Positions 5,001 through 61,541 of a stretch of DNA of 64,000 nt are shown piece after piece. Each line of letters opens with the position of its first letter. Position 1 is the stretch's first letter. The stretch spans positions 12,839,181 to 12,903,180 of the forward strand of contig CAIIXF020000010.1 in assembly GCA_903813345.2 (NCBI GenBank). Direction: 5' to 3'. Position numbers and translations under genes: made by a program. Below the pieces are notes generated by a model that saw nothing but the letters and a program-made list of their open reading frames with translations, had not been told where the DNA came from and ran no database searches. The DNA is from Owenia fusiformis (taxonomy: Eukaryota; Annelida; Polychaeta; Sabellida; Oweniidae).

Positions 5001-8000
5001 CTGCCATTATTGCCCCTACAATTCCTGCTATCAGGCCAGGCATGCCATGGAGGTTGTTCACCCCACACGTGTCGTGGGTCTTCATCCTGACGGCTAGGAA
5101 TGGCTGCAATAACATCATATAAAGCTTATGATTAGTTACACATACATTATTAGAGCGAAGATTGTCATGAGCTGATTAAGTGGGTATCTACTACCTTGGT
5201 CAACCAATGTCTTATTTACTATTCCAAATATAGATAGTAGTTTCTCCAAAGTAATAAATGTGATACTGACATTAATTTCAATATGCTTTTATATCAGAAA
5301 TGTTGGGTATTTTTAGGAAATATGTTTTAATATGATACTGAAGAGAAAAAATCTGAATATGGACACAATTTTCAAAATGATGCTTCACTATCTCTATTTA
5401 TACTACACAAAAGTTATAACTTAACAAAACATGCATATATTATCATGCACGATGCATGTACATGTTAGCATGCATGGTGCATGTACATGTTAGAATGCAT
5501 GGTGCATGCAAGTGTTAGCATGCATGGTACATGTACATGTTGTAATGCATTGTGCATGTAGATGTTAGAATGCACGATGCATGTACATGTTAGAATGCAT
5601 GGTGCATGTACATGTTAGAATACATGGTGCATGTACATGTTAGAATGCATGGTGCATGTAGATTACATGTTAGAATAAATTGTGTATGTACATGTTAGAA
5701 TACATGCATAGTGCATGTACATGTTAGAATACATGCTGCATGTACATGTTAGAATGCATGGTACATGCAAGTGTTAGCATGCATGGTGCATGTAGAGTAC
5801 ATGTTAGAATACATTGTGCTTGCACATGTTAGAATACATTGTGCATGTACATGTTAGAATGCATAGTGCATGTACATGTTAGATTGCATGGTGCATATAC
5901 ATTTTAGCATGTGTCGTGCATGTATATGTTAGACGAGGTTTCTTATGTTACACGGCTAAAAAGTTGCTAAATATGACATTGCCATGTCATGAAGGGTCTT
6001 TAAATACACGAGCTTGTATTTTTTATGTTATGTATCGAAACAACTCATGTCAAAAGAAGTAAAGGGTTTCCAAATATTACGCTGCCCTCATCGATTAAGA
6101 AGCATCGAGGATATGTTTGTTTAGAAGTGATACCTCGAGGTATTTCAGTCCCAATGTTGCTACTGCTCCCGCTACACACCCTACGAGAATAGAGCCATAT
6201 GGGTGGAGCATCAAATCTGCCGAGGTTCCCACTGCGACACCAGCCGCAATCGTTGCGTTTTGTATGTGGTCCTGAACAAAACAATCGTGTACAAGACATT
6301 CAAGGGTCGTGCTTTGAGAAATAGTAGAGTATCGCTCATGTCAATATGATGTATTTTAAGTTAAATGTATCGAATTGTGGCATGGGTTACTTGTGTTTCC
6401 TAAAAATGAAACCGTTGATTTCCCTTGTGAAAGGTTGAGAAAAAGAAGACCACTTTTATTTTCCTCGAGAGACGTGTTATACATGTTACATATTATATAT
6501 AAGATTATACAACACGAGCCCCGAGGTGCAATATACACCCCGTGCAACACACACCATCTGTGATGGGAACAAAGCAGTTTCCCATGTGAAGGCTGCATTT
6601 TTGCAAGTGTGATAGACATAGAAAAATTCTGTGAAGTTGATATCATTCCTTTCGTCGTGGGGTCAATATCTGCAATCTGTGTGCTTCAAATCATTAACCA
6701 TTTATGGGTGCAACCTCTCTGTGATGTGTCTAAATACTTTACCCCATGAAGGAACTTAATTCCAAGTGTGGCGACACACCCTGCCACTGCACCTACTAAT
6801 ACAGCCCCATAAGGGTGGAGCATCATGTCGGCTGGTGTGCCAACTGCAACGCCCGCTGCTATCGTACAGTTCTGGACATGTCCCTTAACACCGATATCAA
6901 TAATCATTTACAATAACCTGATAACACCGCGAATTAATGGCGTTTCGATTGAAGGTTAAGAGTATAATAACCATCTTATTGAAACATTTTTGGTTTATAT
7001 CGTGGTCGCCAAATGAATACTGAACATTTACGTGAATATAAAACGTCGTGTTTAATCGTACTGCGCCTTAATCTGCTGCGGAGACTGATCGGCCATCTCA
7101 AGTACGTTGTCAAATCAGGCCTACTTGAAAAATTATACAGTAAAACCTGTCTTAATGAACACCTCTGTCGAGTGAACACCTGTTTCTCGTGGACACCCTT
7201 TCTTCGCACAAACTCTACTGACTTCTGCATAGATAACATCCCTCCCCCTCCTCCCTGTAATGAACACGTACCAACACTTGTCACTGTACTCGAACGTTTT
7301 TTCACGGCAAGAAAATGTTCAACACACAGGTTTTACTGTATACATAAAGAATAATAATTAATATTTTTGATATGATATGTTACAACCATGTCAGTCCCAC
7401 CTGGAATTATAAAAAGAAAACATTATGAATATAATGATAAATATGTTATTTAAATCTAATATGAAAAGAAATAAGCCAATCTCTAGCTTGTCTATTCAAA
7501 AAGTTACACTATAGCGTCGCACATAACTTTGTACACATATAACTCATATTTTTTGTTGACATTTGGGGAAAATATAACTTACAATTTCAAACCTGCTTTT
7601 CTTATCAACGAGGGATGAGACTGCGAACGACATGATGACCCCAGCAGAGAGGGCAAAGTATGTGTTGATGACAGCCCTGTAGCGTCCATCGTCAGTGGCC
7701 GACACAACGCTGTTGAAACTAGGCCAGAACACCCAAAGGAACAGGGTCCCTAGATGAAGAAGAAATGATTTCCATTCGTATGTGACTTGGTGATATCTGT
7801 AAAGGGTATACAGTAGTTGTGCCATCTACTGTAATTGTTAACTACAATTTTTCCAACTCAATATCCATCCAATCTTTGACGTAAGAACCCATATTTTAGT
7901 CAAATTCTGGTCATTGCTGTTTCCAGGATACTGAACTGAGTTTCAGTTTTTGGCCAATTTTTCCCATGTGTGATTTGAACCATGATACTTGGTAAATTAA

Positions 8001-11000
8001 TGTAACTTTGGAATAGCTTTAAAATGATATATGACACATATTATGGAGACATCGGTATATGTCTGCCTAGGAGGGAGATCCCATACTTTCGGTACACCCT
8101 TTTATTCTATTCTACATATTAAACTATTATAAGGGAATAAGTTTGTGAATATGAACTCAAAGTTCGCTAGTGTTAACCACTGTAAGGTATCTGTCCTTTT
8201 CACAGAGGAACAACTCCAAGGGTAATGTCATAGTGTAATACTGTACCTATCATTGAGAAATGGTCGGAGTGGTAGCAAGGGGCCCATTTGTGATGATCAT
8301 GAATCTCATCGTGAAGCTCGTCGTTGTACAATACACGTGCAACAGCAATACCAAAGTAAGCCCCGAATGCGTGGACGAACATGGATCCTCCAACATCAGT
8401 TACCTGAACAGAATACCATGAGAAACTCAATACACATGTATAGTTAGAGGATGTATCTTCCGAGAAATGGTATTTTCTATGTATCATTTTATTATTTAAA
8501 GACTCGGGGGCATCTAGCCTTGCCTTAGTCTGTATTTTCTTTTACTCATTTCGAATTCAATACCATTGTTTATCAATGATATAACACGTATATGGGAAGT
8601 TGTTAACGTTATGTCCAACATGTCCATCTTAACCGAATCTGAGGCAAATCCTATCCAAATGGATCATGCTTAAATACTCACCTTGAAGACTTTAAGCCCC
8701 AGATATTCGTTGGCCTGGAAAACTACTATTTCAAAGAAGGCCATGATGATAGCCTGCACCAAGCTGACTTTGCCTAGCACTGCACCAAATGAGATCAGCA
8801 CAGCAGCTGCCGCGAAATCAGCTGTTAATAAACTGAAGTAAAGATGTACATTTTCAGTTTACTGATCATCAGGTCATACAGTAAGAGATGTGTTTGGTTT
8901 CTTGTTTCTTACTGATGTTTGTTGAGGATGCATCGCTTTCAATGAATGCACCAATAAGACATATATCAAGAATAAAACTCAAACTCAAAAACATTGATTT
9001 AGCTCAAATTGCGTTTGGCTTACAAACTCCAGTTTCAAGGTCCATTAAATGTTAAAAGATAAAACAACATTGAGATAAGACTTACGTTTCCATGTTGACT
9101 ACGATCATGTTCCTCTCGTTAAGATGAAAGAATCCAATGATGAGGGTGGCCCATTGTAGGACAAACGCTGCCACCAACATATTCAACCCAACGGCGCTAT
9201 AGCCATAACGCTTCAAGAACGTCATCAAGAAGCCGAAGCCAATGAATATCATAACGTGGACATCTTGGAACACTGGAATAAAAACGAACAATTTCTATCT
9301 CGGATTTGTAGGCTATTATCACAGGTCATGAAAGTCATTCCCGAATCAAATCCAAAATTGATTAGGACACACACATGACTGTACATCTAATGGCTGTACA
9401 TCATGTGGGCTATAACAGCCCTCGGAAATCAGGTTCTCATTTGGCGCTTGGGCGCTGGTGGTCTTGATCGGAATCCCATCCACAAGTTGCTTCGCTCTTA
9501 TCAAGACCTAATAGTTGTAAAGTAGATGCATCCCAATCTATCAAGGTATTAAGCAATACACTCGATGATGAATGAATAACAAATATCATGAGATTAGAGT
9601 TGAAAGCCCATGCAAATATCAAAGAACAAATACAAACATCAAAGAACATAGAAGGTGAGTTGATCTGCATTTTAAAAACGGTCGAGGCAATTAATATATA
9701 TGTTCAACCCAGAGGCCTGATGAAAGCTCCACAAGCCTGCGCAATATATGCAACCCACTGCGGTACCGCTATTTCCAATTCACAAAGGGACCGCCCCAAG
9801 GGGACCACAAAGTCAGCATCACCGCAGATATCTTGTGGTACCGCGGAAATTACGTCATTATCGTGCGGTACCTCTGTACTAACCGCAAGTCACTCTCTGA
9901 ATGAAACTAGCATAAGTTTCATCAAGGAAGGGAAACTCAAAACTGCAAACACCCTAAAACCACAACCCAAGTCAAACATTCATGTACAAGTTGTAAGTCT
10001 GCAAAAAATGTCACTTATTTATTTTTTAAGTTTAGTTTGGATCAAAATTGATTTAAAAATACAATGTATTTTATATCAAAATCAAAAGATGTACGTAATG
10101 TTGATAGCTTGCGAAGATATTTTCGTGATTAATATTAAAGGGTATAATGGCATTTGGTATAACGCCTTCGGTACAATGCGCGTCGGTATAATGGGTTTCG
10201 GTATAATGCGTGTCGGTATAATGGGTTTCGGTATAATGCGCGGACCCCGTGGATAGTACGAGTTTCTCCAAGGAAAAATGATGTTTAGATATTTTTTGAA
10301 GATTGCAATCTTCACGAGTTATTGGCCACTGGCGGATCAGGGGGGGGGGGGGGATGCGTATGCATTACCAAAACAGGACCTTAAAATTCTAACAACTTTT
10401 GGTTTTAAGGTTTATTAACTTTTTAAATGTATTCTAATGATTACTCTCACAATTGGATCTCTATCACTCTGCCGCATTGATAACTTTCATGTTCCACTGT
10501 CCTAAATAGTGAGAGCAAACAAATTAGTAAATGAAATAAATATATTAGATAATACGTATTGCAATGTGTTTAATATGTTTATTCTTAGAACTCACACTGG
10601 TTCTCAGTTATCGGTGTTAACATAATAGTTTTGGTCTATCTCAAGTGGTATACATAGATAGCAAATGGTAATATATCTCTTTGAAGTTGTACACCTGCAG
10701 GCCGCACGATGCGCTTGTTTGTCTGACGCGGAAGGTCAAGCGTTCGGTACGGTTAAAGAAATGCACTCCGTCAGTCTGTCCGTCTTGATTGTAACCCAAG
10801 CATCAGTGGGCCGATTTTGCTCTTGTATTTGATGGAAATGCCTTATCGTGCGACGTGATATTATTATAAATGGGGAAATTTATCCTCTTGGAATATTGCA
10901 TTTAGTGTAGTATTATATTATGTTGCATTTTGTCTGCAAATTCAATCGAAAGTAATGCTTTTAGGCCGACATTAAGAAAACATTCTTTAAAGGCCCCATG

Positions 11001-14000
11001 TAAAGGTCAAACCACTTTGGCTTGTATTGTACATAGTAACAAAATGTTTCAATTTCAAAATGTTGTTTTCTGGACTTTTTTCGAAAAGTTCGAAAATGCT
11101 GGTTGTCACACATACTGATATGCAATAGTTTACACCAAGGCAAAGCGTCTATTCTAATTTATTTTGAGTTAGAAAAATAAAGATGATTTGATGAAAATTA
11201 AGAGAGATATTAACTCACAATCGCAGCAAAGTAAAGGCATTTTGAAGTTTGGGTTTTCATTAAAAGCAATGGTACAGAAATGAAAGCACAAGAACACTTC
11301 TTTTCAGCTTAGGAAGACGATGGATACCAGATAAAGTATTATTTTATTTTGGTATAAAGAAAAGATTCATACAAGAAAAATTATGAATTTTGAAAATTAC
11401 GCACCTTATATGAACCTCAGATGAACTTAAACAAGTAGAAATAAATGTTTTCAACTCAACCGGAAAAAAGCTTCAAACTAATCATATTTACAATAAGCAT
11501 TTATTTTAGATTGAATTATTATTGTATCATCCTTCATTCAAAGGACTTCATTTATTACTCAATTATGGAAAGAAGTGAAATACCCTTGGACCAAGGATGT
11601 TGTTGTATCGCCTTCATCAACTGGATATGCTACTCCGTTGCGTTGCCATTGTCCCGTTATTGTAAACATTTTATTTGATTATTGATAACCATTTATTAAG
11701 TAATAACAATTGACCATTCCAAATTGCCTTTAATTGTTTCAAAATTATCTCTTTCTCTAATACGGGCTTCCGTTCCATAAGAATTGCTCAAACACAGCTG
11801 GGCATTCAAGATTGTTTATAACATTAATGTATCTATAATGCAGATAATTACTATTTGATATCTAGACACTTTGATTAAAATGATGAGCCCAGGTGCAAAG
11901 GATTTGAGTGTGTATTATGTTGATCACTGTCCCTTGTAGCTCTGTAACCGTCCGGGGGTCAATGACCACCGGGGACAAAATCCAAGTACCCGCTAGCCAT
12001 TGCTGCCAATAAGCCATAAATATAGAAAATATTTTTCCTCAGTTAGCTTAACATCTTGCAGTTAGCTTTTTATGTACGGTATAATGTGCAATAAAGTGCG
12101 TCCTCTTTTTGTGAGAGTTTCAGCAATCTTAATTTTTAAACGATCCTTCAAAAATTAGATTTAGAAGAGCATCAATATACAGACAATTAACATAGGCTTA
12201 GCCAAATTCAATTAACGCAACGTGTACAAAGTTTTGTTTTCTTAATTATTTTGTATTTTTTTCTATTTGGAATTGGACTGCGGTTTATGATTAAATTAAA
12301 AACAATCCCCAATAAAATGTTGATATTCTAGACGAAATGATTTATTATTACTATTGAAGTTGACATCTTCCTTAAATCCTAGAATCTGACTACTTCCTAA
12401 AATTTTAAAAGTATTTGAGATTATGGCATTGATAAAGGGCACTTTAGTTCAACATTAGCATTGTTTATCACAAAGCGGCTTATGACTTCTAATCTCAGTT
12501 CTTCGAAATACATGATAATTCAGAGTGACATCCTGTCTACAACTGTATATAAATCGAAGTGCCAGATTAAAGAGTGTCACAACAGCGACAGACGATCTGA
12601 ACCAAAGAACACTCTGCAGCAAAAACAAACGCAGCGATTTATCGAACGTGACAATTCAAGATCCCGACGCTCACGGACGCAACATCCAGTATGGGGTCCA
12701 TAACTTTTGCAGTGTGTCTTATTGTCATTCAGCAAGGTAAGCAAACGTTGGTCATTCAACTGTAATGATATTGTCAATTATGCGACGTAATCATTTTGTT
12801 TTGATGTTGAACCTTTGAATCATTACTTGAAACAACTGTTATATCTTCTATACTAGTACAGAAATTACTACAACTATTGTCAATGGCAAAAATGAATATT
12901 TATTTTACTTTGTTCTTCATATAAGGTCAAGTGGTTTAGATATTTCCTGAATGGTATAGAAGAAGTATAATCCGTCATTTCTTCACACTCATGGGATACA
13001 TTTTGGAATATTTGGGGTTTGTTTTACCTTTGAATGATTATTGTCTTTAATGTTTCTTTTATTGTTTTTTTTTTGATATTCTTTATTTATTCGCTACTTG
13101 TTGTTGGGCGTCATTGGTATAGCGCATTCTTTGGTACAATGATAAGTTTCTCCGCTTACTTTTGTCCTACTTTGAGTCTGGCATTTTGACAAGTGTGTCA
13201 AATATTTAAGTAACTATTAATAACGATATTCTATATACGTAAGATGTGTACAATTTAACATAGTATGTTACTTATCTGCATTGTATCCATTAATGTCTTA
13301 AATGTGATTTGTTGTATGTACTACTGCACTGAATTTTTTCCATTGTGGCACTGTTTAAAAAGTGACAAATAAATAAACAATAATTAATAAACAAACAAAA
13401 TTAAATTAGCATCCCAACCGGAGCCATGGGAATCGACTGTGAGAACATCGGTTTAAATCAGTGCAAATAATCTACATGATACAGCAAGTAACTTACATTT
13501 ATAGTGTATGGTTATCCGTAGTTACAATTGACTTCAAAGTAGAAACCAACGTTCTTCACATGTAAGTGAAGTAAACAATGCCTTCAGATCAAGAACCTTT
13601 CATAAAACTCGTACAGCGAGTGTCGAAATGTAAATTCATTAATAGTGTTTTTTAAATGAATTTCTCGGACCCGCATTGGAGTGGTGTAAAAACTGTTTCC
13701 AAAACAGTGTAATAGCTTTATAATAAACAATATTCTATATTCCAGTAATTGCACAATGTCCTCCTCGTGTACCAGAATACTCGAAGCCCGAGGAAAACAA
13801 ACTGTGGAGAATTAATACTCCCATGTATGACCTGATAATCTATGGTACAAAGCCTGGAGAAGAACTCATGCCATCAAAAGAATACAATGGTAAGTCATTC
13901 AGTTTGCCTATTTGGACAAGGTTTCAAATGGCACCCAGGTCATTGCCTGGGATGTTAAAAGTTTGTTCATTTCTCTCATTCTGATTATTCTTCTGAAAGT

Positions 14001-17000
14001 TCCTTTATAAGGCCAATGAAATGACGGGAATTGATTATACAAGTTGAAAACATATCTGTTGCACTAGATTGTGGTATTAAAAACAGAATTGGGATAATCT
14101 AATCGACATATAATATATTGAAAACTGATGATTTAAAATGCAACAATGTTCAAATTCATTGAAAATAAGAAAGCAAATGACCATATTCATTGTCAAATAT
14201 AGGTGACTTTCAAATCGGGGAATTATCATGAAATAAAGTAAAAACTGTTGTACATGATAGATTCGAATGACCTGTAATGATGACGACAAAAACACCGAAG
14301 ACAGTGATAATGCTAATATGTTCTTATCAAATATACTTGATATATGTTTGTGTAAAGGGCCTGGGATTATTGCTTTATGTTAAAAATATACATTTTGCAC
14401 TTAACTTACGTTGTATATTTGTAGTTGCTGTTAGATCTCTTAACCCAAAGAAGTCTTTCCTGAAATTTCGACTGGTCTCCGAGTCCGAAGATGAAGTTTG
14501 TGGTTTCGGCAATTTCCGCCAAAAGCCGTATGACAAGTATCAAATATTGGATGAATGTCCTTTTATGATTACAAATCGAGTTGATAATAAAAAGCCAATT
14601 TCCAAAATAACAATTAGATGGACGACTCCTGAGTGTGGATGTGTCAGATTAAGGTATTAAAAATGTACAAATTTTTACAATATTTTCATGAAACATTTCA
14701 TATGAAAATAATTTTAATTTTCATATATTTTAGATTGATAATTCTAGTACTTGAAAAAGTTAATATTATTTTCATTGAGTGTGATATGTTGTATGCTATC
14801 TCCATTTATCCATCGATCAGTAATAAATAATGCCAATTTCTTTGAATATGATCTCATACAGTATTTATCTCCATGATGTTTGATTTCAGCGCTGTTATTA
14901 TCTCAGACGATGAGACCAGTCACATTGCCAACGATGACCATTTAACAAAGAGAGTATGTATACAAGGTAAAAAATAATACGATTACTTTATCGAACATTT
15001 ATTTTTTCTCCACAATCTAAAGCTATATTTTATCTATACAGCTTCATCCTTTTCAAAATTATACATGGTCTTGCGGGCTATAAAGTAATTCAAATTCTTA
15101 ATTGAGTAGTAATTTGGCTCCAGGATTTAATTCATGCATCGCCATTATCTGCCATGTCATTGCAATGTCATTTCTGTATTGTTTTCAAAGAGATACTCTT
15201 TCATATAATATGCAGATTTTAATACAAATAATTTTGCCCATCATTTCTATCAATATTATTTATAAACATCATTTCTTCACTGCTGGAACTAAGGTACATT
15301 TTGCCGAAAGAAATAAATTCATATCCAACGCATTTTATATCGCAGGTGAGCCCAAAATACCAGAGAAATCTGTCAGTCATGTTGTACCGTCTCCGATGAC
15401 TGATGATGTCAGCGACCCAGATGTACAGAGTGATGAAAAGGAAATGATTGGCCTTGAAGATGAGGAATCACATTATGGCGACGTGGATGATGATGAGGAT
15501 GCAATGGTTAACAAAACAGCTGAAACACATTTAGACAATGCAAAGGGTACGATAAAAAGGACTGGTAATGGCAACCCTGGTGGAATTAGGAGAAATATAG
15601 AACGGGGTATACAGGCAGTCAAAAGGGTCTTTAAACCAGATATGGGAAGATTGCAACCACACAGGGGACAAAGAATGAGACAAGGACACAGACACCATGA
15701 GGTACATATCAAAATAATAATCAATCTGTCTGATGTATGTAAGTAAACCTATGAAAATTAAGTATTTTGTAGACATTTGAGCAACGTGGTTATTATGTTG
15801 ATGAGGTATCTTGCAAGACATTGATGAATGGCTGGTTCAAAAAATTGTTTCTGCTCATTGATTTGATATAATCATATACATTGTAATATTAATTTTAGAG
15901 AAGCAAAGACTGGAGTGAAAGAGTGGAGCACATGTGTTCAAAGATTAAAGAAGAACGTGACATAGAGATGGGTACCTTAAATCGATGGGGATGGAAAGTC
16001 ATGTGGCACCGTATTGAACAGTTCTGGGCAAAGTTAAATGGGGATGAAGCGACAGACATTGACGAGATAGCTCAGGAAAATCTGAATGCAACCCAAAAAT
16101 GTTGTACTCAGGTATGTGGTGTTATAACTAAAGATAAAGAACCTTACATGTAAACTTATGTACTGACTTGTTGATTGTATATAATAAGTGAACAACGGTC
16201 ATTTTATTTCATCTTTTAAAATAAATCACACGATTCACTTTAAAACATTAATGGACATTAATATATGATGTTGTAGGCTGATGATGCACGACTAGATTGT
16301 TTCCAAGGTCTAAAGGAACGGAGGGTAGACATGATGTGCGAGAAGGGACTACCTACAAATAGTGGAAGATGGATCAAGCCCAGCCTAAATATTGCTATTG
16401 AAAAATGCTGTGATTTTAAAGGTAAAATAGTTAGTAGTACTTGCTTACTATCTAGGGAATACACCCAACTAAATACCCTGGCTTAACCAATTGTAAACGA
16501 GACCAAAAGTATTTCTAACAAGGCACAATTTTCTAAGTAGGTTTGTATATTCATGTTATAAACAGAATACACATGAACGTGTCTTGAATTATCCATTTGT
16601 CCAGGTGAGGATCGTTATGACTGCTTCAATAACACCAAACAAGAATGGAAGGCTAACGCTAAAATGACTAACACTCGATGGAGAAAGGAGAGTTCTGATA
16701 AGTACTCGAAAGAATCTGAAGACACACTAACATCCAGATCATCATCAAGGTCATCATCAGCAGAATCCTCATCAGAAATATCAGCAATCTCCGACGAAGA
16801 ACTTGATAATGCCATTGACGTAGTGGTGGATGATATTGATGAACTGGAATTCTCCGAGGATGAACTAACGATAGATGATTTAAAAGAAGCAGAATATGAC
16901 ACAGTTGATGAACTTGATGAGAGTGTTGAGGTCACTGATGGTGTCAGCGAGGATTCCAGTGACGAAGTGAAGAATCCACAGGGCATGAGACGAAAACATA

Positions 17001-20000
17001 ATCACCACCCAAGACATAGAGGAAGAGGAATGGGTGAGCAGGTTCAATTCAAAAATAAAAAAGTTAAGGTTGCATTTTAAGTGTAAGTTGACAAATCAAA
17101 AACAAGAGTAAGAAACTTAAAGTGCAATTAAAATGAAAAATAAGATCATGCTTCGGGAAATATGACATAATATAATTACATAAATTGATATTTATTTCAG
17201 CAAAGATATTGAAGCATTACTGCTGCAGAGCAGGATTTATCACAGCAAAGAAGAGCAAAAGAACTGTAGTGTGCAAGAACAGAGCCAAGGGTTTTGACAT
17301 GAAGTTGCGAAGGTTAACAGGAATGGCCAAGAGAATCTGTTTCGTATCATTCAATAAATGCTGCAGCAAAATTTCAACACCAAAGTAAGCCTTGGTATTT
17401 TAAATTTGATAATAGTTTTTTGACACTTAACTGATATAATTTATTTCTGTTTGGAAATGCTGTTTGTAAGGTTAAATTTTACCATTATTAGGCTAATCAT
17501 TACAGATTATTTAACCATTTCTTATCATGTCTAGTTATATGTAAAGTAAAGCCTCTCAATAAACTAGACGCTTCTCAACAATATTACCATAGTTAATCTT
17601 AAATAAAAACAATTGAATTTTATTTTTCACAGGCCTACAACAATAACAGTTAATCCATCAAACACAGCAACTGCAATCTACAAGACTACAACAGAGGTAA
17701 AGTGTATTGATATAAAACAGAATCTTAAGATGTTCTGGACAAATCATTTGATTCTGGACTTGTCATATTTTTTTCAACGAAATCACATCCAAGGGTTGAA
17801 TTCAACCAGTCCAGAATCAAATGATTTGTCCAGAACCTCTTAAGATCCTGTTATAAGATAAAATATAATTCATTTCATCTATGAGCAAATGAGTTTTACA
17901 ATCATTACCCATCAAGGTTGGATTTTATTCAGCGAGCCAGACAACAACAGGAATTAATTACAGTGGAACAGTCTTTCTATCATTACGTAATTCGAATTAG
18001 CCTTTTTTTAATTCATTTCAAATTTAAAGCCCATTTAGACAGTTGCATTTTCTTTAAATTAGGAAGAAGATTTAGAGGAAGTTGCCAATGAAATCTCTGA
18101 AATAGAGTTCTCCGGAGGTGAGATCAGTGATGCCGATATAGAGCAAGCAGAAAGGGAAAGTGTTGCAGAGCTGGAAGCTGATGACACAGATGATGAACAG
18201 GAAGAGAGAAAAATACAGAAAGATACTAGACGACCAATTAAAGGTGAACATAAGAAAGAACACCATCGTGGACGTAAAGGAAAAAGTAAGTGTTTGAAAG
18301 GATAACAATTTAATCAAGAAATAACAATAATTAAAAATATGTCATTTAACACACAGTGTCAGTCAAACAGACAAGCATTAATGTTGTGATGATTTTGGAG
18401 GAATTAAAATAAAAAAACGATAGAATGTAAGCAAGTTTAATGGCATAACAAATCTCCAGTGATTGAAAGGTACAGTTCAGTGAAACGTATAGTAACTGTT
18501 TCTGATATTATCCTAGAATATAGTGTTATATAGGTCTCACTCAATGAATAATATTTTGTATTACAGAAATACCTATGCTGAAAAGAAAATGTTGTAGAGC
18601 AGGACGCATGCAGGCTAGAAAGGAGAATATAAGCGAGATAGCGGTCTGCAAGAGTGATGCATTTGGCTTCTTGAAGAGACTAAAGAGAGTTGGACCATTC
18701 GCAAAGAGGATTTGTTTCTTCAGCTTCAAAAAATGTTGTAGTTATGAACCTAGGTGGGTCTAATTTTGGAATTGTTGTAACTTAGGATTTAGTGTCAAGT
18801 TATGAACTAAAAGCAGAGATTTTTTCTAAGAATTGTTAGCTACAGTGTAAAAATCGACCCCAGATCTAATTTGAGGGAATATGGATATACTAATATTTTT
18901 TAAGTCAAGCTCCTTATTCAGTTTTCATTGTTCAACTGTTTGAAATAGTTCGAACTTTCAGTAGGACCTGCCTATTGAACTATCTATCAGCATTTCTTGA
19001 GTCGCTTCAGTTCTTCATGTATCAACTATCTTCACTCTTAAAGTGATTCCTTGACAATTTCAGGACAACAACAACTACTACACCTTCTACCCATAAGCCT
19101 ACAACTACAACTACATCAGAATCCTCACCAGACATATCCTTATCAGCCTCTAACGAAGAACTAGATAATTTCATTAACATTATGATGAATGAAATTAATG
19201 AACTGGAATTCACAGAGGATGAACTAACAATAGATGATCTAAAAGAAGCAGAAGACGACACAGTTGATGAGCTTGATGAGAGTGTCGAAATCACTGATAT
19301 TGACAGCGATGAAGATGACCTCAGTGAGGACACTGAGAAACCATCGGGCATGAGACGAAAACATAAAAACCACCCAAGATACAGAGGAATGGGAAGAGGT
19401 GAGCAGGATCAACTTTAACAAATCAAAAAAACTAATCAATAAGTTGCTTATTCGGAAAGGTCATGTTAAAACATTAAGTGTAAGATCCACAAATCAGAAA
19501 CAATAATTGAAGACTTATAATGCCATTATAAACAATAGTAATACGTTTCAAATGGTGATGAAATATGACACAATATAATTATATACATTTATTTTTATTT
19601 CAGCAAAAACATTGAAGAATTTCTGCTGTAGAGCAGGATTCATCATAGCAAAGATAAGCAACAAAACCGCAGTATGCAGGAACAGAGCCAAACATTTTGT
19701 CATGAAATTCAGAAGGTTGGCAGGAATGGCCAGGAGAATTTGTTTCATATCATTCAATAAATGCTGCAGTAAAATGTCACCTCCAAAGTAAGCTTTGATA
19801 CTTTATATTAATTATCATTTTTAGGTCACCAAAATGATGTGTGAATATTATCTCCCAGTTTAGGAAACAACATAAATAGCAAACAGCAAAACAAAACAAT
19901 TGTGTCAATTTTAACCCTCTATATGTTGGAAAACGTATTGAAATCTATCTTACTCAGTAAGAATACCTTTGCTCAGCCTGATCTTGTCCAATAGGTCACT

Positions 20001-23000
20001 CTTTCAGTAGAACCAATGCATTTAGCTATGTATCAGAATTTCCCGAGTCGTTTCAGTTCATGTATCATTGTCACGTATTATTGTCGTGTTTAAAGTGATT
20101 CCTTGACAATTTCAGGACAACAACACCTACTTCGTCTCCTACTCATATGCCTCCAACTGTTATGACATCAGAATCCTCATCAGAAATACCCTTATCAGGC
20201 TCCAACGAAGAACTTGATAATGCCATTGACGTTGTGGTGGATGATATTGATGAACTGGAATTCTCAGAGGATGAACTAACGATAGATGATTTAAAAGAAG
20301 CAGAAGATGACACAGTTGATGAACTTGATGAGAGAGTTGGGGCCACCCATGGTGACAGCGATAATGCTGACTCTAGTGAGGAAGTGAAGAAACCACAGGG
20401 CATGATACGAAAACATAATCACCACCCAAGACAAAGAGGAAGAGGAATGGGTGAGCAGGTTCAATTCAAAAAATGAAAAAATAAAAGTTGCATTTTAAGT
20501 GTAAGTTGACAAATCATTAACAAGAGTAAGAAACTTAAAGTGCAATTAAAATGAAAAATAAGAATTTGCTATAATTACATTAATTAATATTTATTTCAGC
20601 AAAGATATTGAAGCATTACTGCTGCAGAGCAGGATTTATCACAGCAAAGAAGAGCAAGAGAACTGTAGTGTGCAAGAACAGAGCCAAGGGTTTTGACATG
20701 AAGTTGCGAAGGTTAACAGGAATGGCCAAGAGAATCTGTTTCGTATCATTCAATAAATGCTGCAGCAAAATTTCACCACCAAAGTAAGCCTTGGTATTTT
20801 AAATTTGATAATGATTTTTTGTCACTAAACTGATAAAATTTATTTCTCAATTTGGAAAGGCTGTTTGTAAGGTTAAATTTTACCATTATTAGGCTAATCA
20901 TTACAGATTATTTAACCATTTCTTATCATGTCTAATTATATGTAAAGTAAAGCCTCTCAATAAACTAGACGCTTCTCGACAATCTTACCATAGTTTATCT
21001 TAAATAAAAATAATTGAATTTTAATTTTCACAGGCCTACAACAATAACAGTTAATCCATCAATCATAGCAACTGCAATCTACAAGACTTCAACAGAGGTA
21101 AAGTGAATTGATATAATATATAATTCATTTCACCTATGAACAAATGAGTTTTGCAATCATTACCAATCAAGGTTAGATTGTATTCAGCCAGCCAGACAAC
21201 AACAGGAATTAATTAGAATGGAACAGTCCTTCTAGCATTACATAATTCGAATTAGCCTTTTTTAAATTCATTTGAAATTTTAAAGCCCATTTAGACAGTT
21301 GCATTTTCTTTTATTTAGGAAGGAGATTTAGAAGAAGTTGCCAACGAAATCTCTGAAATAGAGTTCTCCGGAGGTGAGATCAGTGATGCCGATATAGAGC
21401 AAGCAGAAAGGGAAAGTGTTGCAGAGCTGGAAGCTGATGGCACAGATGATGAACAGGAAGAGAGAAAAATACAGAAAGATACTAGACGACCAATTAAGGG
21501 TGAATATAAGAAAGAACACCATCGAGGACGTAAAGGAAAAAGTAAGTGTTTGAAAGGATAACAATTCAATCAAGAAATAACAATAATTAAAAATATGTCA
21601 TTTAACACACAGTGTCAGTCGAACAGACAAGCATTAATGTTGTGATGATTTTGGAGGAATTAAAATAAAAAAACGATAGAAAGTAAGCAAGTTTAATGGC
21701 ATAACAAATCTCCAGTGATTGAAAGGTACAGTTCAGTGAAACGGATAGTAACTGTTTCTGATATTATCCTAGAATATTGTGTTATATAGGTCTGACTCAA
21801 TGAATAATATTTTGTATTACAGAAATACCTATGCTGAAAGGAAAATGTTGTAGAGCAGGACGCATGCAGGCTAGAAAGGAGAATACCAGCGAGATAGCAG
21901 TCTGCAAGAATGATGCATTTGGCTTCTTGAAGAGACTAAAGAGAGTTGGACCATTCGCAAAGAGGATTTGTTTCTTCAGCTTCAAAAAATGTTGTAGTTA
22001 TGAACCTAGGTATGAACTAAAAGCAGAGATTTTTTCTAAGAATTGTTAGCTACAGTGTAAAAATCGACCCCAGATCTGATTTGAGGAAATATAGATATAC
22101 TAATATTTTTAAAGTCAAGTTCCTTATGTTGAAGAATGAGAGCACTTTAGCTAAGCCTGATCTTTTGATGGATCTTATTCAGTTTTCATTGTTCAACTGT
22201 TTGAAATAGTTCTATGTGTCAGCATTTCTTGAGTCGCTTCAGTTCTTCATGTATCAACTATCTTCACTCTTAAAGTGATTCCTTGACAATTTTCAGGAGA
22301 ACAACAACTACTACACCTTCTACCCATAAGCCTACAACTACAACTACATCAGAATCCTCACCAGACATATCCTTATCAGCCTCTAACGAAGAACTAGATA
22401 ATTCCATTGACATTGTGATGAATAAAATTGATGAACTAGATTTCTCCGAGGATGATCTAACAATAGATGATCTAAAAGAAGCGGAAGACGACACAGTTGA
22501 TGAGCTTGATGAGAGTGTCGAGATCACTGATATTGACAGCACTGAAGATGACCTCAGTGAGGACATGAAGAAACCATCGGGCATGAGACAAAAACATAAA
22601 AACCACCCAAGATACAGAGGAAGGGGAAGAGGTGAGCAAGATCAACTTTAAAAAATAAGAAAAACTAATCAATAAGTTACTTATTTGAAAAGGTCATGTT
22701 AAAACATTTAGTGTAAGATCGACAAATCAAAAACAATAATTGAAAATTTATAATGCAATTATAAACAATAGTAATACGTTTCAAATGGTGATGAAATATG
22801 ACACAATATAATTATAAACATTTATTCTTATTTCAGCAAAGATATTGAAGAATTTCTGCTGTAGAGCAGGATTCATCATAGCAAAGATAAGCAACAAAAC
22901 CGCAGAATGCAGGAACAGAGCCAATCATTTTGTTATGAAGTTCAGAAGGTTGGCAGGAATGGCCAAGAGAATTTGTTTCATATCATTCAATAAATGCTGC

Positions 23001-26000
23001 AGTAAAATGTCACCTCCAAAGTAAGTTTGATATTTTAAATTAATTATCATTCTTAGGTCACCGAAATGATGTCTGAAATCATTTCCAGGCTCGGGAAACA
23101 ACATAAATAGCAAACAGCAAAACGAAACAATCGTGTCAATTTAAACATCTATATGTTGGAAAAAGTATTGATATCTATCTTACTTAGTTAGAGTACCTTT
23201 GCTCAGCCTGATCTTGTAAAATAGTTCACACTTTCAGGAGGACCAATGTATTTAGCTATGTATCAGAATTTCTTGAGTCGTTTCAGTTCTTCACGTGTCA
23301 ATTATTTTCACTTTTTAAATGATTCCTTGACAATTTCAGGGCAACAACAACTTCATCTACTACCCATAAGCCTACAACTACAACCACATCAGAATCCTCA
23401 TCAGATATAGCCCTATCAGCTTCCAACGAAGAATTATATAATTCCATTGACATTGTTATGGGTGGAATTGCTGAACTAGAATTCTCCGAGGATGAACTGA
23501 CGATAGATGATCTAAAAGAAGCTGAAGATGACACAGTTGATGAACTTAATGAGAGAGTTGAGGCCACCCATGGTGACAGCGATAATGCTGACTCTAGTGA
23601 GGAAGTGAAGAAACCACGGGGCATGATACAAAAACATAAAAACCATCCAAGACACAGAGGAAGAGGGAGAGGTGAGCAAGCTCAATTTAGAAAATCAAAA
23701 ACCTATTTTAATAAGTAGCTTTTTGCTTGAAAAGTTCATGTTAAAACATTAAGGTTAGATTGATAAATCATAGACAAGAGTTGAATACTTATAACGCAAT
23801 TAAAATGAATAATGATAACATGTTTCAAAGGTGAGGAAATATGACACAACATAACTGTATTCATTCATAATTACATATTTCCCCAGGGAAATAAACAGGG
23901 AATAGAATTGATTAACTCAAAATCCATATCAGGTGAGGCCATATATTGACACGTGGGCTGTCGCCCTGTCAATATGATATTCTCCTTGACCAATATCACA
24001 TTTCCCTTAAAATTCATATTCCATCACTCTGATTTAATGAACTTTATATACTCGTATTCATTTCAGCAAAGATATTGAAGCATTACTGCTGCAGAGCAGG
24101 ATTCATCATTGCAAAGAAGAGCAAGAGGACTTCAGTGTGTAGGAACAGATCCAAAGATTTTGTCATGAAGTTCAGAAAGTTGGCAGGAATGGCCAGGAGA
24201 ATCTGTTTCGTATCATTCAATAAATGCTGCAGCAAAATTTCTCCTCCAAGGTAAGCTTTATTATTTTGAACTCGATAATGTTTTTATCACCAAAATGATG
24301 CACGAATATTATTTCCCAATTTGGAAAACAAAATAACAGTATTAGGAAGCAATTTTGTAAATTTTGGGCCCCTCTATCCTATTAAAAAAACTTAGAACTT
24401 CTTCCCGATAAATGTAAAGAATCACTAAAATGATATAAACTTGGCATATTAGTGAGAAGAAAATCATCATTTGGGAATTTGTTTGCAATGTTGAAATTAA
24501 CGATTTTCAGGCTTATTATTGCAAATTATTTAACCATTTCTTATCACGTAGAACATGTAATATGGAGAGGAAAGCCTTACAATAAACATAATGTTTCTGT
24601 GCAACCCTCTTATACTAAATCTTCAATAAAAAGGTTTAATTTTATTTTTACAGACTACCGACAACAACAGTTAAACCAGCCACCACCACAACGGCAATGT
24701 ACAAGACTACCACAGAGGTAAGGTGTATTGATATAAAATACATTTATGTAAATAATATAGTCATCATAACCACCAAGGAAGAATTGCATTCAATGAACTA
24801 GACGACATCACTTCTTCAAGCATTACATATCATTCATATTATTCAATTTGAAAAAGTCATTTTGTTAAAGGCCCCGTGTAAAGTTTAAACCACTTTGGCT
24901 TATATTGTAGTCTTACCCAATGTTATCAAAGTGTGATATGTGAAACTTTTTTTTTAAATTTCAAAAAGTGGTTTTTGATAGACTTTTTGTTCCAAAATTT
25001 GTGAATTTATTTAAAACCAACTTTTAGAGGTCACTCATATCTTCTAATTAGCCACAATTCATACCAATGCATAGCATTCATCCTCCCATGTTTTTTGCCG
25101 AAAAAATTAAGAAAATTGGTTGATAAACAAGCGAGAAATGAACTTATCAGTGCATGAAAATGGTTCTGAGAAAAGTGCATTTCAAAATTTTAGTTCTCAT
25201 AGAAACAAATGGTACAATGATATCTAAAACATAATTTATTCTTCCTTTTAACCTGGTTAGACAATCAACATTGGTTTTTTATGAAAGTCTAGCATATTTA
25301 GAAAAGATTGACATCGAAAAAAAAAATTTTTTGTTACCTTAGTGACATCACTAATGTTTCAAAATATTTTTGATAAGCTAAAACATTGAAGTGGCCCATT
25401 AAATATGACATTTTATTATTGAAATAGTGTGTCTTTTGTTCAATCTTTGCATTGGTGTTAAAAAGATAATCTTTTTCGAAATGCATTAAGAGATATTTGA
25501 TGATTAAGAAATTTCAACTTTTTAAAAAAAATGGCGGGAAATTTGAATATTTGAGAAATGAAATGCTCACAACTTTTTTTTCCAAAATTTTTTTTTGTTC
25601 AAAAATCTCTAAAATCACTTTTTAAGTCCTAACAAATAGTAAATGAATTATAAAAAAATATTTTCAAACTTTAGACGGGGACTTTAATGAAAGCCCATTT
25701 AGACATTTGCAATTTCTTTTAATTAGGAAGAAGATTTAGAGGAAGTTGCCAATGAAATCTCTGAAATAGAGTTCTCCGGAGGTGAGATCAGTGATGCCGA
25801 TATAGAGCAGGCAGAAAAGGAAAGTGTTGCTGAGCTGGAAGCTAATGACACAGATGATGAACAGGAGGGTGAGAGAATACAGAAAAACACGAGACAACAA
25901 ATAAAGTGCACACATAAGAAAGAACACCATCGTGGACGTAAAGGAAAAAGTAAGTGTATGAAAGAATGATACACCAATCAAGAAGTGAAGATAATTCATA

Positions 26001-29000
26001 ATAGGACATATTGTCAGTCTGACAGACAAACACTAATAAAATGACTACTTTCGAGAAATTCGAATCAAGAAATAATAGAATGTAAGCCGTTTAATGACAG
26101 AGGAAATCATCACTGGTTGAAACACAATTGCCATTGAACTGTTGAAACATATTGTGTACAATATCCGATGTAATACAAGAATGGAATACTATTCAGGTCT
26201 TTCAATCAATGAACAATAATTTATATTACAGAAATACCTCTGCTGAAGAGAAAATGTTGTAGAGCAGGACGCATGCAGGCCAGAAAGGAGAATACCAGCG
26301 AGATAGCAGTCTGCAAGAGTAATGCAATGGGCTTCTTGAAGAGACTAAAGAGAGTTGGACCATTCGCAAAGAGGATTTGTTTCTTCAGCTTTAAAAAATG
26401 TTGTAGTTACGAACCAAGGTAAGTAAAAAAGAACTAGCGTTGGTCTATTTTGGAATTGTCGTAACTAAGCATTTAGTAGCACGTCATTGTTGAACCAAAA
26501 GCCGAGATTTGTTTTCTCAGAATTGATAGCTATACATTTCAAAATCAGAGGAAATATTGATACACTAATAGCTTTGAAATGTCATGAAAGTGGCTTCTTA
26601 TATTACCGAAAAGATTGCATTTAATTGGTAAGCCTAATCCGTTGGTGGACCTTATTTAGTTTTCATTGTTCATTTTCTTGAAATCACCAGACGGTACACA
26701 GTTCAATAAATTTGTTTCACTGAAAGTGTCCAGCATTTTTGAGCACTTTCAGTTGTTCATACATCGACGATATCGATCTTAAAGTGTGCTCCCTTGTCAA
26801 TTTCAGGACAACAACAACTGCTGCAACTACAACCCCCGAGCCTACAACTATAACTGCAGATGACTACTCATATGAGGACATGGATGACCTGAGTGAAGAG
26901 AATTATTAAGAATATATCTGACACCATCATACAAATCTGAGATGAAGTAAAACCTTTGTGAATTGAACATCTCCACGATATCTAAATAGTGCTCCACTTT
27001 ACAGGCATCATGATAAACCATGACATCTCAATTCTTCTCAGCCCTGAAATATAATGAGCTTGATTTGGCCGATCCAGGAGAGCCCAAAATTGAGGATTTT
27101 TGAGATCTTTTTCATCCCAGCTCATATTTCATCTAATTTGGGGTCATAAAACTTGTGTAAATGTACCTGTGCTAATATCTGCTGTTAAATACAATGCCTA
27201 TTATGGAATTTATTGACATTAGGTAAATGATTAAATTAATATTGATAAAAATCAACCTGAAAATGTATTCATAATGTTATGCATTCATTAAGTTATGCAT
27301 TCATAATCGTAATGTCTTCAAAAGATAAATACTTGTACATACAAAACAATTTGGATGTTTTATTAAGAAAACATTCAAAAACATGAACTTGCCTGAAGAC
27401 TAATTTTGATATATCCCATTGCTTTAAGTATTATGTAATATAGTGTAAATAACAAGTGTTTGTACATAATGTCTTTGTAAAATGATTGCATAGTTTAGTG
27501 CAGTGTAGCTAGCTTTATTTTTGTTCTTGACTTTTATGTCATGCCATGACATCTAATGAGTCAATAAAAGATATAATTGTACAGTAGTTTTTAATATCAA
27601 TGTATAAACAATGCAACTGCATAATTATAGATAATTATGAGACTTTGTGCAAATTATCCCATCACAGACAATCAATAACAATGTGAACTGTATATCAGTC
27701 GTTATATTATGTACATATCTATGTCCTGCCGAAGCATGTATAAAGTAAAGCGATAAAATATAATGTTAAATAAAATATTGAAACTTAAATATAGCTGTTA
27801 GATTTGTTCAATTACCCTGAATTTCATAAAATATCTTATTGTTCGCATTAGCAATTGTAGACAAAATACCTACACGTGCAATTAATTAGCCCTAAATTTA
27901 AAGGGAATGTCTATAGTTTGTTTATATCTTGCAATATCAGAGTTGTGATCCAAAATTATCCCTTCAATAAGAGGGGTAAATACCCATGACTTCATAGATG
28001 AACTGACTTCCATGATAAGATTAAAAGCGGAATATCAGTGAAGATTGGACACCCTGTACATATTTCACCGGCTAAAGTACTGTTTTATTATATACATTAT
28101 ACATCGCGATGGTATGTTTTCTCAAGGTCCTCTTTATAACGCATTTTATGTTCAGGTGATCTCGAATAATAGGAATGACAAGTCATATATCAAACATTCA
28201 TGTTTATTTTGAAAGCTTTGGAAATGACCCAATTATTTTATCTCAGTAATTACAGTATTATACTATCCTATACTTAAAATAATCTCTAAGTTCTAACAGA
28301 TTTTTTACTATAGTTCACTTGGGAATCGTTTTCAAAAGCATGAAGTACCGTACTTGATGAACACCTATTATTAAGTCTATTTCTAAAGGTTCGGAGGTTA
28401 AAATACAAGGTATGATAAAGTTATATTGTTTTCCGTGACTGAAACCAGCAAGTGCTCTGATCATATGTGGTATAAAATATATATCTTATGGAATAATATA
28501 TTATCTTATATATTATATATTATATTATTATTATATATTATATTACCATATTATATATATTATTATTATATATTATATTATTATATTATATATATATTAT
28601 TATTATATTATATATTATATTATATATTATCTTATATATATATATCTATATCTTATGGAATATATATATTATTGACTAGGTTTTCGAGACGTGTGTCCGA
28701 ATGACAAGCAGCTGATTTAAACGACCTTTAAGTTCGGTTGTGTAGGACCCACCTCCAAATATCAACCAACGGCACTGAACTCCGACTGATTACAACGCTA
28801 GTCAAATGAAGCTTTTGAACCCAGCAAAATACAAAACGAAGGATTTTCAAACCAGTCATTTCAGAACTGGATTACAGTTTTTTTCTTTCCAAAAGGGACT
28901 GTATCACGTGTACTTTAACTCAATTTGTAATTTAAAGTCTAGATTTATCATTGGCAGCGATTGAGATGAAGCAAATATAAAATACTTGAACTCCGCCACG

Positions 29001-33559: not shown

Positions 33560-36500
33560 GTATAGTAGGAACAAGGGGTTCCCATGCACCCATAAGGTGT
33601 GAATAAGTTACATACATTTTTGTAATCCCTAGGGTGTCTATTTAATGAATTCATTTGTTAACATTGCCAACTAATGTCCCATAGTACTTTTATGGCGGCA
33701 TTCAGTTACCATGGTTACGCATCTTTAGACATCTTACCTTGGTATCTTAAATCATTTGTAGCTCTGTCATTATTTGGTCTATAGAAATGATATTGGTACC
33801 AAATTAAACCTCGTTAAATTTCCAATAAATTTATCGTATTCAATTATGCAAATTATCTAATTTGCATAAATTATGACGTCATCAATCTATTTTTGGTTCA
33901 GAATTTCCAACTATAGCAACGTATCTATTAGAACTGAGGCCGTATGGCAAAATTTCTGAAAGGTTTTGTCCTTTATTCTATTAGTAGAAGGTATAAGCAA
34001 CATAAAAGTGAAAACAGATTCAAAATTGAATCAGTATTACGAAAGTTATGTAACTTTCGAGGCAGCTATCGTGAATGTCATTATTTGACAATAATATACA
34101 TACGTCTTACCTTGGAGTCTTGAATCAATGTAGCTTCGCCATTATTTGGTCTATAGAGATGATATTGGTATCTGATTAAACCTTATTAAATTTACTATAT
34201 GGTTACAATATTCAGTTATGCAAATTAGCTAATTTGCATTAATTGTGACGTCATCAATCCATTTTTGGTTCAGAATATCCTAGTATAGCAACATATCTAT
34301 TAGAACTGAGGCCGTATGACAGAATGTGTGCATAGTTTTGTCCCTTATTTGATGAGTGGAAGATATAAGCAACATTAAAGAGACAACAAATCTTCAAAAT
34401 TGGATCAGAATTAACAAAATTATCCAGCTTTGGAGGCGGTTACTGTGAACGTCATTGTTTGACAATTATAAAAAGAATATTAAATTAACAAAAAAAGTAA
34501 CAACCATAGTTGTTTCAATCTTATTGAGTAAAAATGTGCATGTATTGAACTGAACTAATAAGTATGTGGAAAGGTTACATGTTCTTTGACTATCATTCAC
34601 AGGGGTCAAAACGGTTATCTCGACGCTGTATATTAAAGATCCAATCTTATAATTTACCATGCACTTTCAATGATTCATATAAATAGTATACATATAGTCT
34701 GCTTTTCATCATATTCTTCATATTCTTGATTCTTAAAGCATCTGAAGTATATAGCATGATTAGAAGTGAAGATGATTCATCATATGGTTTATGTAATATT
34801 TCATATATTTCAGATGCTATGGTAACATCACTTGATAATGAGGTTTTTACATTTCACGTTCTTAATGAGTTAAAAGGAAGTTATTCTCCCTTTGCTTTAG
34901 AGATAAATAGTCGCATGAATTTGTTTAGAAAAATTATAACTTAATTAATTTAACCCCCCCCCCTGACAGCCCCATATATGAAGATTTTGGTGAAACCTGG
35001 CAAAATACATTAATTATTAGGTTCCAGAAGCCCCCAGAAGCTATATGATGGCCCCCAGTGTCCCAAAGAATCTATACAGGGGCCCCAAGTGGCCCCCAGA
35101 AGCTATACTGTGCTCCCCAGAAGCTATATGTTGGCCCCCAGAAGCTGAATAGTGGCCCCCAGGAGCTATACGGTGGCTCCCAGAAGCTATACAGGAAACC
35201 CTGTGGCCCCCAGGAGCTATACAGTGGCGCCCAGAAGCTATACAGGGGCCCCCAGTGGCCCCAAAAAGCTATACGGTGGCCCCCAGAAGCTATACGGGGC
35301 CCCCAGAAGCTATACAAGGGCCCCCAGAAACTATACTATGGTTTCCAGAAGCTATTTGGTGGCCCCCAGTGGCCCTCGGAAGCTATATGATGGCCTCCAG
35401 AAGCTAATTAGTGGCCCCCAGGAGCTATACGGTGGCTCCCACAAGCTATACAGGGGACCCCAGTGGCCCCAAGAAGCTAAACGATGGCCCCTAGAAGCTA
35501 TACAGGAGCCCCAAAAAGCTACATGAAGGCTCCCAGAATCTATATGATGGCCCCCAATGGCTCCCAGAAGATGTGAAGGGCCCCCAGTAGCCCCTAGAAG
35601 CTATACGGTGGCCCTCATAGGCTATATGATGGCCCCCAGAAGCTAAATAGTGACCCTCAGGAACTATATGGTGGTTCCCAGAAGCTACACAATGGCCCCC
35701 AGAATCTATGTGGTGGCCCCAAATGGCTCCCAGAAGCTATAAAGGGCCCCCCAGTAGCCCCTAGAAGCTATACGGTGGCCCCCAGTGGCCCCAAAAGCTA
35801 TATAGTGGCCCCCAGAAGCTATAAAGGGGGCCACAGTGGCTCCCAGAAGCTATACGATGGCCCACAGAAGCTATACAAGGGCCTGCAGAAACTGTACTGT
35901 AGCCCCCAGAAGCTATACAGGGGCCCCCATTGGCTCCCAGAAGCTATACGATGGCCCCCAGAAGCTATGCAAGGGCCCGCAGAAACTATATGGTAGCCCC
36001 CATAAGCTATACAATGGCCTCCAGAAGCTATACAGTGTCCCCCAATGGGCCACCATATAGCTTTGGGGGCCACCGTATAGCTTCTAGGGGCTACTGGGGG
36101 CCCTGTATAGCTTCTGGGAGCCATTGGGGGCCATCATATAGATTCTGGGGGCCATCGTGTAGCTTCTGGGGGCTGCTGTATAGCTTCTGGGGGCCATCGA
36201 ATAGCTTCTTGGGGCCACTTGGGTTCCCTGTATAGCTTCTGGGTGCCACCGTATAGCTCCTGGGGTCCACTAATTAGCTTCTGGGGGCCATCATATAGCT
36301 TCTGAGGGCCACTGGGGGTCACCATATAGCTTCTGGAGACCACAGTATAGTTTCTGTGGGCCCTTGTATAGCTTCTGGGGGCCATCGTATACCTTCTGGG
36401 GGCCACGTGGGGCCCCTGTATAGATTCTTGGGGCCACTTGGGGCCATCGTATAGCTTCTGGGGGCTTCTGGAACCTAATAATTAATGTATTTTGCCAGGT

Positions 36501-56779: not shown

Positions 56780-57165
56780 TGAAGTAGACTATTCTTAATT
56801 GTACAAGTCAAGCATTTTGTAATCTGACTATTCTTAATTGTACAAGTCGAGCATGTAGTAATCTGACTATTCTTAATTGTACAAGTCAAGCATGTAGTAA
56901 TCTGACTATTCTTAATTGTACAAGACGAGCATGTATTAATCTGACTATTCTTAATTGTACAAGACGAGCATGTTATAATCTGACTATTCTTAATTGTACA
57001 AGACGAGCATGTAGTAATCTGACTATTCTTAATTGTACAAGTCAAGCATGTAGTCATCTGGCTATTCTTAATTGTACAAGTCGAGCATGTAGTAATCTGA
57101 CTATTCTTAATTGTACAAGTCGAGCATGTAATAATCTGACTATTCTTAATTGTACTAGTCTAGCA
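56780..57165. repeat. 39-bp minisatellite
   Basis: About ten copies of TAATCTGACTATTCTTAATT plus GTACAAGTCGAGCATGTAG. As 39 is a multiple of 3, one minus-strand frame stays open and gives a false 113-aa protein of TIKNSQITTCSSC repeats. Confidence 0.92.
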
Positions 57166-60980: not shown

Positions 60981-61541
60981 ACAAAAACAATCAGCTGTTA
61001 CATAATAAACATTGACAAGGACAACTGTAATCTTTGCTTCCCTCTTGATCCTAACTACTTTCAGTATGCCAACCCAGAGAGAGGGGAGGGAATGGAACAG
61101 CTGAAAAGACACAATGCAAAACTAAAGCTTTCAGTTTTTTCTTCTGTTACCAGGTTACATTGAACTATTTTGCGATTACATCATATCCAGGCATATTATC
61201 AATATTTATTCATGAATCACAAACTCTAGTAAATTCTTCAAATCTATACATAGATATTAGTCAAACAACAGTATTGCAACTGCTCTGTTGGTGAATTGAC
61301 ACATATGTGAATATTATTAGAAATATCACGTTCAAGTCATTTGATGATATGCCAAATTCACCAAAGGCATCATGGAAATTTTAGAAAATCATACCTCTAA
61401 TTAACAACAATTATATCAGGTACATTGGTGCACAAACAATTATTTAAATGAGATACAAACAAGGGAATAATACAAAAATGAAATCCCAAAAACATCTTTT
61501 TAAATTCTTTATATTATGACTATTACCAAAGAGTACATATA

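Follow-up and report, generated by a model that had tools for sequence, protein, structure and literature searches.

A single gene on the plus strand of a 64-kb stretch of contig CAIIXF020000010.1 (64,000 nucleotides, all of it analysed here and called the window) is predicted to encode a secreted protein of 1806 residues. In this protein an N-terminal Reeler domain and a likely albumin-type half-domain are followed by eight cationic, disulphide-rich and probably helical modules, every one with an acidic spacer in front of it, and the charges of spacers and modules almost exactly cancel. We tentatively read the product as a mostly uncleaved, charge-balanced multivalent scaffold of extracellular matrix, mucus or body fluid. 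Flanking genes and domain content suggest that the gene is animal DNA, and short introns together with the neighbouring genes hint at an invertebrate.

The gene model runs from an ATG at 12691 to a stop codon ending at 26909. It was built with a splice-path script that chooses sites by reading frame and consensus, with rough exon places set by hand from six-frame open reading frames (ORFs), and is a checked hand model rather than a blind prediction. A single path was obtained, with 27 exons and GT-AG boundaries at 26 of 26 introns, exactly recovering the complete 1806-codon frame described in an initial annotation of this DNA. By a leave-one-out score, the chosen sites ranked first among nearby GT or AG dinucleotides for 21 of 26 donors and 21 of 26 acceptors, and these predicted sites suggest that all exons are spliced into one message. 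The features are listed below; exons rest on the gene model, and module exons also on the module alignment, except where other evidence is named.

12546..12552 (+): TATATAA, possible core promoter, 145 nt 5' of the ATG (pattern match only)
12691..12736 (+): exon 1, start codon and candidate signal peptide (gene model; hydrophobic N-terminus read by eye)
13746..13889 (+): exon 2, end of the candidate signal peptide and start of the Reeler domain (gene model, Pfam)
14425..14653 (+): exon 3, Reeler domain core (PF02014, E = 3.4e-7, residues 53-147; PDB spondin-1 Reeler, E = 7.4e-4)
14890..14966 (+): exon 4, end of the Reeler domain
15346..15701 (+): exon 5, linker, acidic then basic
15899..16111 (+): exon 6, albumin-like segment, Cys 1-3 (PF00273, E = 7e-6, 26.3 bits, cut-off 34.4)
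16277..16421 (+): exon 7, albumin-like segment, Cys 4-7 (Pfam, Cys spacing)
16605..17033 (+): exon 8, last albumin-like Cys, first acidic spacer and basic tail
17201..17384 (+): exon 9, module 1, type A1
17633..17696 (+): exon 10, threonine-rich linker of B spacer
18063..18285 (+): exon 11, acidic B spacer with basic tail
18567..18753 (+): exon 12, module 2, type B
19064..19398 (+): exon 13, threonine-rich linker and acidic A spacer
19604..19787 (+): exon 14, module 3, type A2
20116..20450 (+): exon 15, acidic A spacer opening the second higher-order unit (gene model, paralogue comparison)
20600..20783 (+): exon 16, module 4, type A1
21034..21097 (+): exon 17, threonine-rich linker
21319..21541 (+): exon 18, acidic B spacer
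21823..22009 (+): exon 19, module 5, type B
22297..22631 (+): exon 20, acidic A spacer
22837..23020 (+): exon 21, module 6, type A2
23340..23671 (+): exon 22, acidic A spacer opening the third, partial unit (gene model, paralogue comparison)
24067..24250 (+): exon 23, module 7, type A1
24654..24717 (+): exon 24, threonine-rich linker
25727..25949 (+): exon 25, acidic B spacer containing a single additional Cys, residue 1697 (Cys list)
26232..26418 (+): exon 26, module 8, type B
26807..26909 (+): exon 27, threonine-rich linker, acidic tail and stop (gene model; AATAAA downstream at 27563)

The charge pattern is, beside the domain order, the most distinctive feature of the protein. From the first to the eighth, the modules carry net charges of +17, +13, +16, +17, +13, +14, +17 and +14, summing to +121, and the spacers that precede them carry -19, -12, -21, -20, -10, -18, -13 and -10, summing to -123. 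These counts include a 7-residue flank around each module. The last 22 residues of every spacer form a basic, histidine-containing tail of +7 to +9. Across the whole protein, 302 lysines and arginines face 321 aspartates and glutamates, for a net charge of -19. Acidic spacers and cationic modules had been recognized from the outset, but their near-exact balance had been missed. A separate idea, that the stretch between the third and fourth cysteines forms a strongly amphipathic antimicrobial helix, was unsupported beyond composition (shuffle p 0.06-0.2).

A regular expression for CC-x14..18-C-x21-C-x6-CC recovers eight modules, with a first loop of 15 residues in five (type A) and 17 in three (type B). 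The expression, the cysteine positions and the charge counts all agree with the eight cationic six-cysteine modules and acidic spacers of the initial annotation. What that account did not notice is a higher-order organization under purifying selection: the modules follow the order A1 B A2 / A1 B A2 / A1 B, a three-module unit present 2.67 times. The first two units are recent copies, with exons 93-99% and introns 85-98% identical. Unit 3 is older; its exons remain in frame and 73-94% identical to their counterparts, whereas its introns have fallen to 52-74%. In the alignment of the eight modules 22 columns are invariant, including the six cysteines, CCRAG and RICFxSFxKCCS.

The ratio of nonsynonymous to synonymous divergence (dN/dS) is 0.15-0.36 for modules (13 pairs), with values of 0.08/0.31 for the A modules of exons 16 and 23, 0.14/0.49 for those of exons 9 and 14, and 0.035/0.23 for the B modules of exons 12 and 26. 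A-type spacers change faster yet are still acidic (0.44-0.94, 6 pairs); the acidic B-type spacers are as tightly held as the modules (0.17-0.28, 3 pairs). With dN well under dS, and exons kept while introns diverged, the repeat frame is more than chance and the modules are under purifying selection. The similarity of units 1 and 2 (98.9% identity between exons 9 and 16, with the intron figures given above) would also be expected if the repeat number were partly an assembly artefact, with two haplotypes placed in tandem. We consider this very improbable: unit 3 is clearly older, which argues that tandem duplication genuinely occurs here, and intron 10 contains a palindromic insertion absent from its paralogue, intron 17, although such a difference could also exist between haplotypes. 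Over 138 nt this insertion (17705-17855, about 140 nt) shows 75% identity to its reverse complement, and it looks like a miniature inverted-repeat transposable element.

Further observations on the repeats concern possible modifications. N-glycosylation sequons are present in six of the eight modules (exons 12, 14, 19, 21, 23 and 26, at residues 724, 897, 1228, 1401, 1580 and 1731). Cys 1697, in the B spacer of exon 25, is the sole spacer cysteine besides the albumin-like one of exon 8, and could form an intermolecular disulphide. A comparison of the module alignment with viral contigs gave 40 pattern matches with 0 confirmed, a result that says little given the type of collection.

The head of the protein, behind the hydrophobic leader, matches Reeler (PF02014) at 31.3 and 32.0 bits in two cuts of the N-terminus scanned alone, above the curated cut-off of 21, and the Reeler domain named at the outset is thereby upheld. 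Pfam did not report it when a 778-residue piece was scanned. The best PDB sequence match of this part is the Reeler domain of spondin-1, with the E-value listed for exon 3. A tblastn search of the 64-kb window detected no further Reeler or module copy, with one hit outside the gene at E = 8.3 and none at E <= 1 away from the exons. Against viral and prokaryote genome contigs, the Reeler part gave 22 matches with 0 confirmed, and here too the kind of collection makes the result say little.

Intron 4 carries the join between the Reeler domain and the rest of the protein, and it is here that the locus might instead divide into two transcription units, or one with two starts, yielding a 168-residue Reeler protein and a secreted repeat protein that begins 5' of exon 5. 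Retention of intron 4 would complete the split codon and add two codons before a stop (14967-14977), giving a Reeler-only product of 168 residues, the length also given for the insect Reeler protein Noduler in the excerpt of PMC12113285. An AATAAA lies at 15312. Upstream of exon 5 its frame stays open for 82 codons (15102-15345), the longest such run of 26 (the next are 52 and 28); open runs of at least 81 codons begin at 1 of 6146 intronic start points (0.00016), and none lies outside intron 4. Hydrophobic runs follow possible ATGs within this stretch, which may be an alternative first exon or start. The splice sites of intron 4 speak for the join, however, with the donor ranking first of 12 and the acceptor first of 15 locally by the leave-one-out score, and with compatible phases. 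The signal at 15312 means little, since 14 AATAAA or ATTAAA hexamers occur between 12737 and 17200, and an additional start would be compatible with a joined message. On balance, we regard separate units or starts as quite unlikely. Because exon 8 encodes the last part of the albumin-like segment together with the first spacer, that segment is tied to the repeats whatever occurs upstream.

The segment encoded by exons 6-8 is likely, though not certain, to be an albumin-type half-domain. The initial annotation had recorded a CC-x9-C segment, which is present, but its albumin-like nature had escaped notice. Homology to the albumin family is supported by the match to Serum_albumin (PF00273), which at 26.3 bits lies under the curated cut-off of 34.4, and by the cysteine spacing; 1 of 30 cysteine-fixed shuffles matched the same profile (E = 0.081). 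ECM1 is the second Pfam match (E = 0.038). The eight cysteines show the C-CC-C-C-CC-C framework of an albumin half-domain, and their intervals (54,0,9,12,22,0,9) are near those of human albumin domain III (44,0,9,12,14,0,9), with domain II at 44,0,6,11,12,0,9. In pairwise alignment, the score against domain III was reached by 0 of 1000 free and 61 of 1000 cysteine-fixed shuffles, and that against domain II by 483 of 1000 and 830 of 1000, respectively; the pairwise likeness to human albumin is not clearly beyond the cysteine framework. A PDB sequence search with the segment returned no match at E <= 1. Serum albumin consists of three homologous domains, whereas here there is one eight-cysteine half-domain: a single stretch was matched in the first 778 residues, and no second albumin-like set appears in the cysteine list of the whole protein.

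Whether the modules are anaphylatoxin-like, as initially proposed, is harder to judge. They share with the ANATO domain of C3, C4 and C5 six cysteines in the order CC..C..C-x6-CC and a cationic character, and the motifs CCxxG and C-x3-F-x2-CC, which are ANATO marks, are invariant in 8/8 modules. They differ in their loops, which measure x15/17 and x21 where ANATO has about 12 and 12, and in occurring eight times with acidic spacers between them. At E-values up to 10, and within HMMER's filters, 0 of 8 intact modules matched ANATO (PF01821). When the loops of an A module were cut to 12 and 12, 14 of 16 trims matched, with a best E of 0.0017; the first of these covered profile positions 1-36 of 36 at 15.2-15.3 bits against a cut-off of 21.4. 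Trims of a B module matched in 3 of 16 cases (best E = 0.26). The trims overlap and are not independent. Among cysteine-fixed shuffles with the same spacing, 2/60 matched (best E = 0.0034; 0/8 in a first trial), as did 1/30 shuffles of the albumin-like segment (E = 0.036). Kinship to anaphylatoxins is therefore suggestive at about the few-percent level: the trimmed A loops make the proposal plausible, but the intact modules and the shuffles leave it unproved. For one sea bream C3, the excerpt of PMC7768046 reports an ANATO domain that is longer by 81 residues, and longer module loops would therefore be compatible with ANATO.

A fold prediction for one module, the check put forward with that proposal, gave a similarly divided answer. 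AlphaFold models an A module as three helices bearing CC, C and C-x6-CC, at a predicted local distance difference test score (pLDDT) of 70, and the B model fails (pLDDT 48.5). An ANATO core would need its cysteines on three helices in this way; the ANATO fold, found also in fibulins, has disulphides 1-4, 2-5 and 3-6. Foldseek returned no PDB match to the A model at E <= 0.001, the three rows at E = 7.4-8.8 being PDCD5-TRiC, saposin C and leptin; neither C3a nor C5a was matched, which proves nothing. No significant match was found among 36 rows at E <= 10 in a viral structure library. PDB sequence searches gave no match for a single A module and, for the module profile, two cyanovirin rows (E = 0.54-0.64) and no C3a or C5a structure, and NCBIfam gave weak rows only (E = 0.077 and 0.22). 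Pfam matches to Ribonuclease_P in two of the eight modules (best E = 0.005) and to DUF7505 for B trims (0.015-0.02) were taken as chance.

In the function first proposed for this gene, an immune polyprotein would be cut at basic junctions and at the module ends, freeing eight cationic C3a-like peptides from acidic pro-pieces to kill microbes or attract cells. The modules, at +13 to +17 in 62-64 residues between acidic spacers, have the charge for this, and lysine or arginine is the last residue of 8/8 before the threonine-rich linker (RR in module 5). The conserved ANATO-like motifs and the matches of trimmed A modules point in the same direction, and C3a is described as directly antimicrobial in the excerpt of PMC8913944, where the fish C3a under study bound bacteria without killing them. 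However, RX[KR]R is confined to the interior of the three B modules and is absent from the borders. Dibasic pairs are found in 5/5 A spacer tails, as RR or RK in three and KK in three, but at differing places; the terminal lysine or arginine is followed by P or LP in 3/8 modules; and the intact modules match no ANATO profile. The lack of a cleavage site common to the A borders favours an uncleaved matrix or surface-defence protein over a C3a-releasing polyprotein, which we regard as unlikely. The alternative named alongside it, an acidic and basic extracellular matrix protein, fits as well or better.

We therefore lean toward an uncleaved scaffold, with somewhat less than even confidence, because the modules are constrained while the A-type spacers are looser but remain acidic, because the charges balance, and because the A borders share no site. 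We speculate that the cationic modules, in repeats joined by threonine-rich linkers, would bind polyanions such as microbial surfaces, glycosaminoglycans, nucleic acid or mineral precursors. Their acidic spacers may maintain solubility and shield the modules until these encounter Ca2+ or a stronger polyanion, and the Reeler head may anchor the protein to matrix or microbes. Several findings weigh against this interpretation. The terminal lysine or arginine of every module, together with RGRKGKK at 3/3 B borders, would suit release by a protease. The constraint on B-type spacers implies that not every spacer acts as a loose tether, the module fold is predicted only for type A and only at the pLDDT given above, and the open frame 5' of exon 5 suggests that transcripts lacking the Reeler domain could begin there. 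As a special case of the scaffold, the protein could serve as a biomineral or adhesive matrix protein in which acidic blocks alternate with basic ones and together form coacervates or bind mineral and Ca2+. A polyampholyte composition, spacers rich in aspartate and glutamate, and the presence of a Reeler protein among gastropod shell matrix proteins (PMC9365450, excerpt) are consistent with such a role, but the six-cysteine modules are constrained like folded domains, and we think it improbable.

Known Reeler proteins offer partial parallels. Noduler and other arthropod Reeler proteins that are reported to act in antibacterial immunity likewise have an N-terminal Reeler domain (PF02014) behind a likely signal peptide; in the excerpt of PMC12113285 that domain makes up nearly all of the protein, whereas here it heads 1806 residues with repeats. 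The gastropod shell matrix protein CfSMP1 also combines a Reeler domain with a disordered region, but its disordered tail is rich in glycine and glutamine, and the excerpt of PMC9365450 mentions no cysteine modules. Among the matches listed in a search of open-licence PMC literature, no paper joined Reeler with albumin or anaphylatoxin domains. Judged from this limited search, the layout may be unfamiliar for a matrix or defence protein.

More broadly, an animal lineage, probably invertebrate, might have built a new extracellular polyampholyte from three ancient components, a Reeler domain, an albumin-type half-domain and loop-extended anaphylatoxin-type modules, each module with its own acidic counter-charge; we hold this to be possible but rather doubtful. 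If it were true, one and the same protein would contain the cysteine-helix folds of both albumin and ANATO, as would fit a common origin. The albumin family is regarded as vertebrate, and an albumin-type domain joined to Reeler would bear on the origin of that family and extend such domains beyond vertebrate plasma proteins. The protein would also be a natural example of unit-by-unit acidic balancing of cationic disulphide modules, whose design could be tested as a means to store or display cationic effectors or to build charged matrices.

GC content is 0.348, and the 64-kb window contains 0 tRNA genes and 0 Rfam families at gathering score. Flanking exons of an Rh-type ammonium transporter gene lie at 4951-8541 on the minus strand, with PF00909 in four ORFs, one of which has PDB matches to Rh types A and C. 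Further down from the gene, a 413-codon ORF on the minus strand (42314-43552) contains an IPT/TIG domain (E = 7.7e-14), preceded by a stretch that appears C2-like by eye. A minisatellite of about 21 bp of the GTGGCCCCCAGAAGCTATACA type occupies 35036-36465 and switches strand near 36060, so that its two halves form a large inverted repeat. A 22-bp minisatellite at 47085-48228 has about 52 copies, and further arrays lie at 5445-5933, 56787-57165 and 60537-60985.

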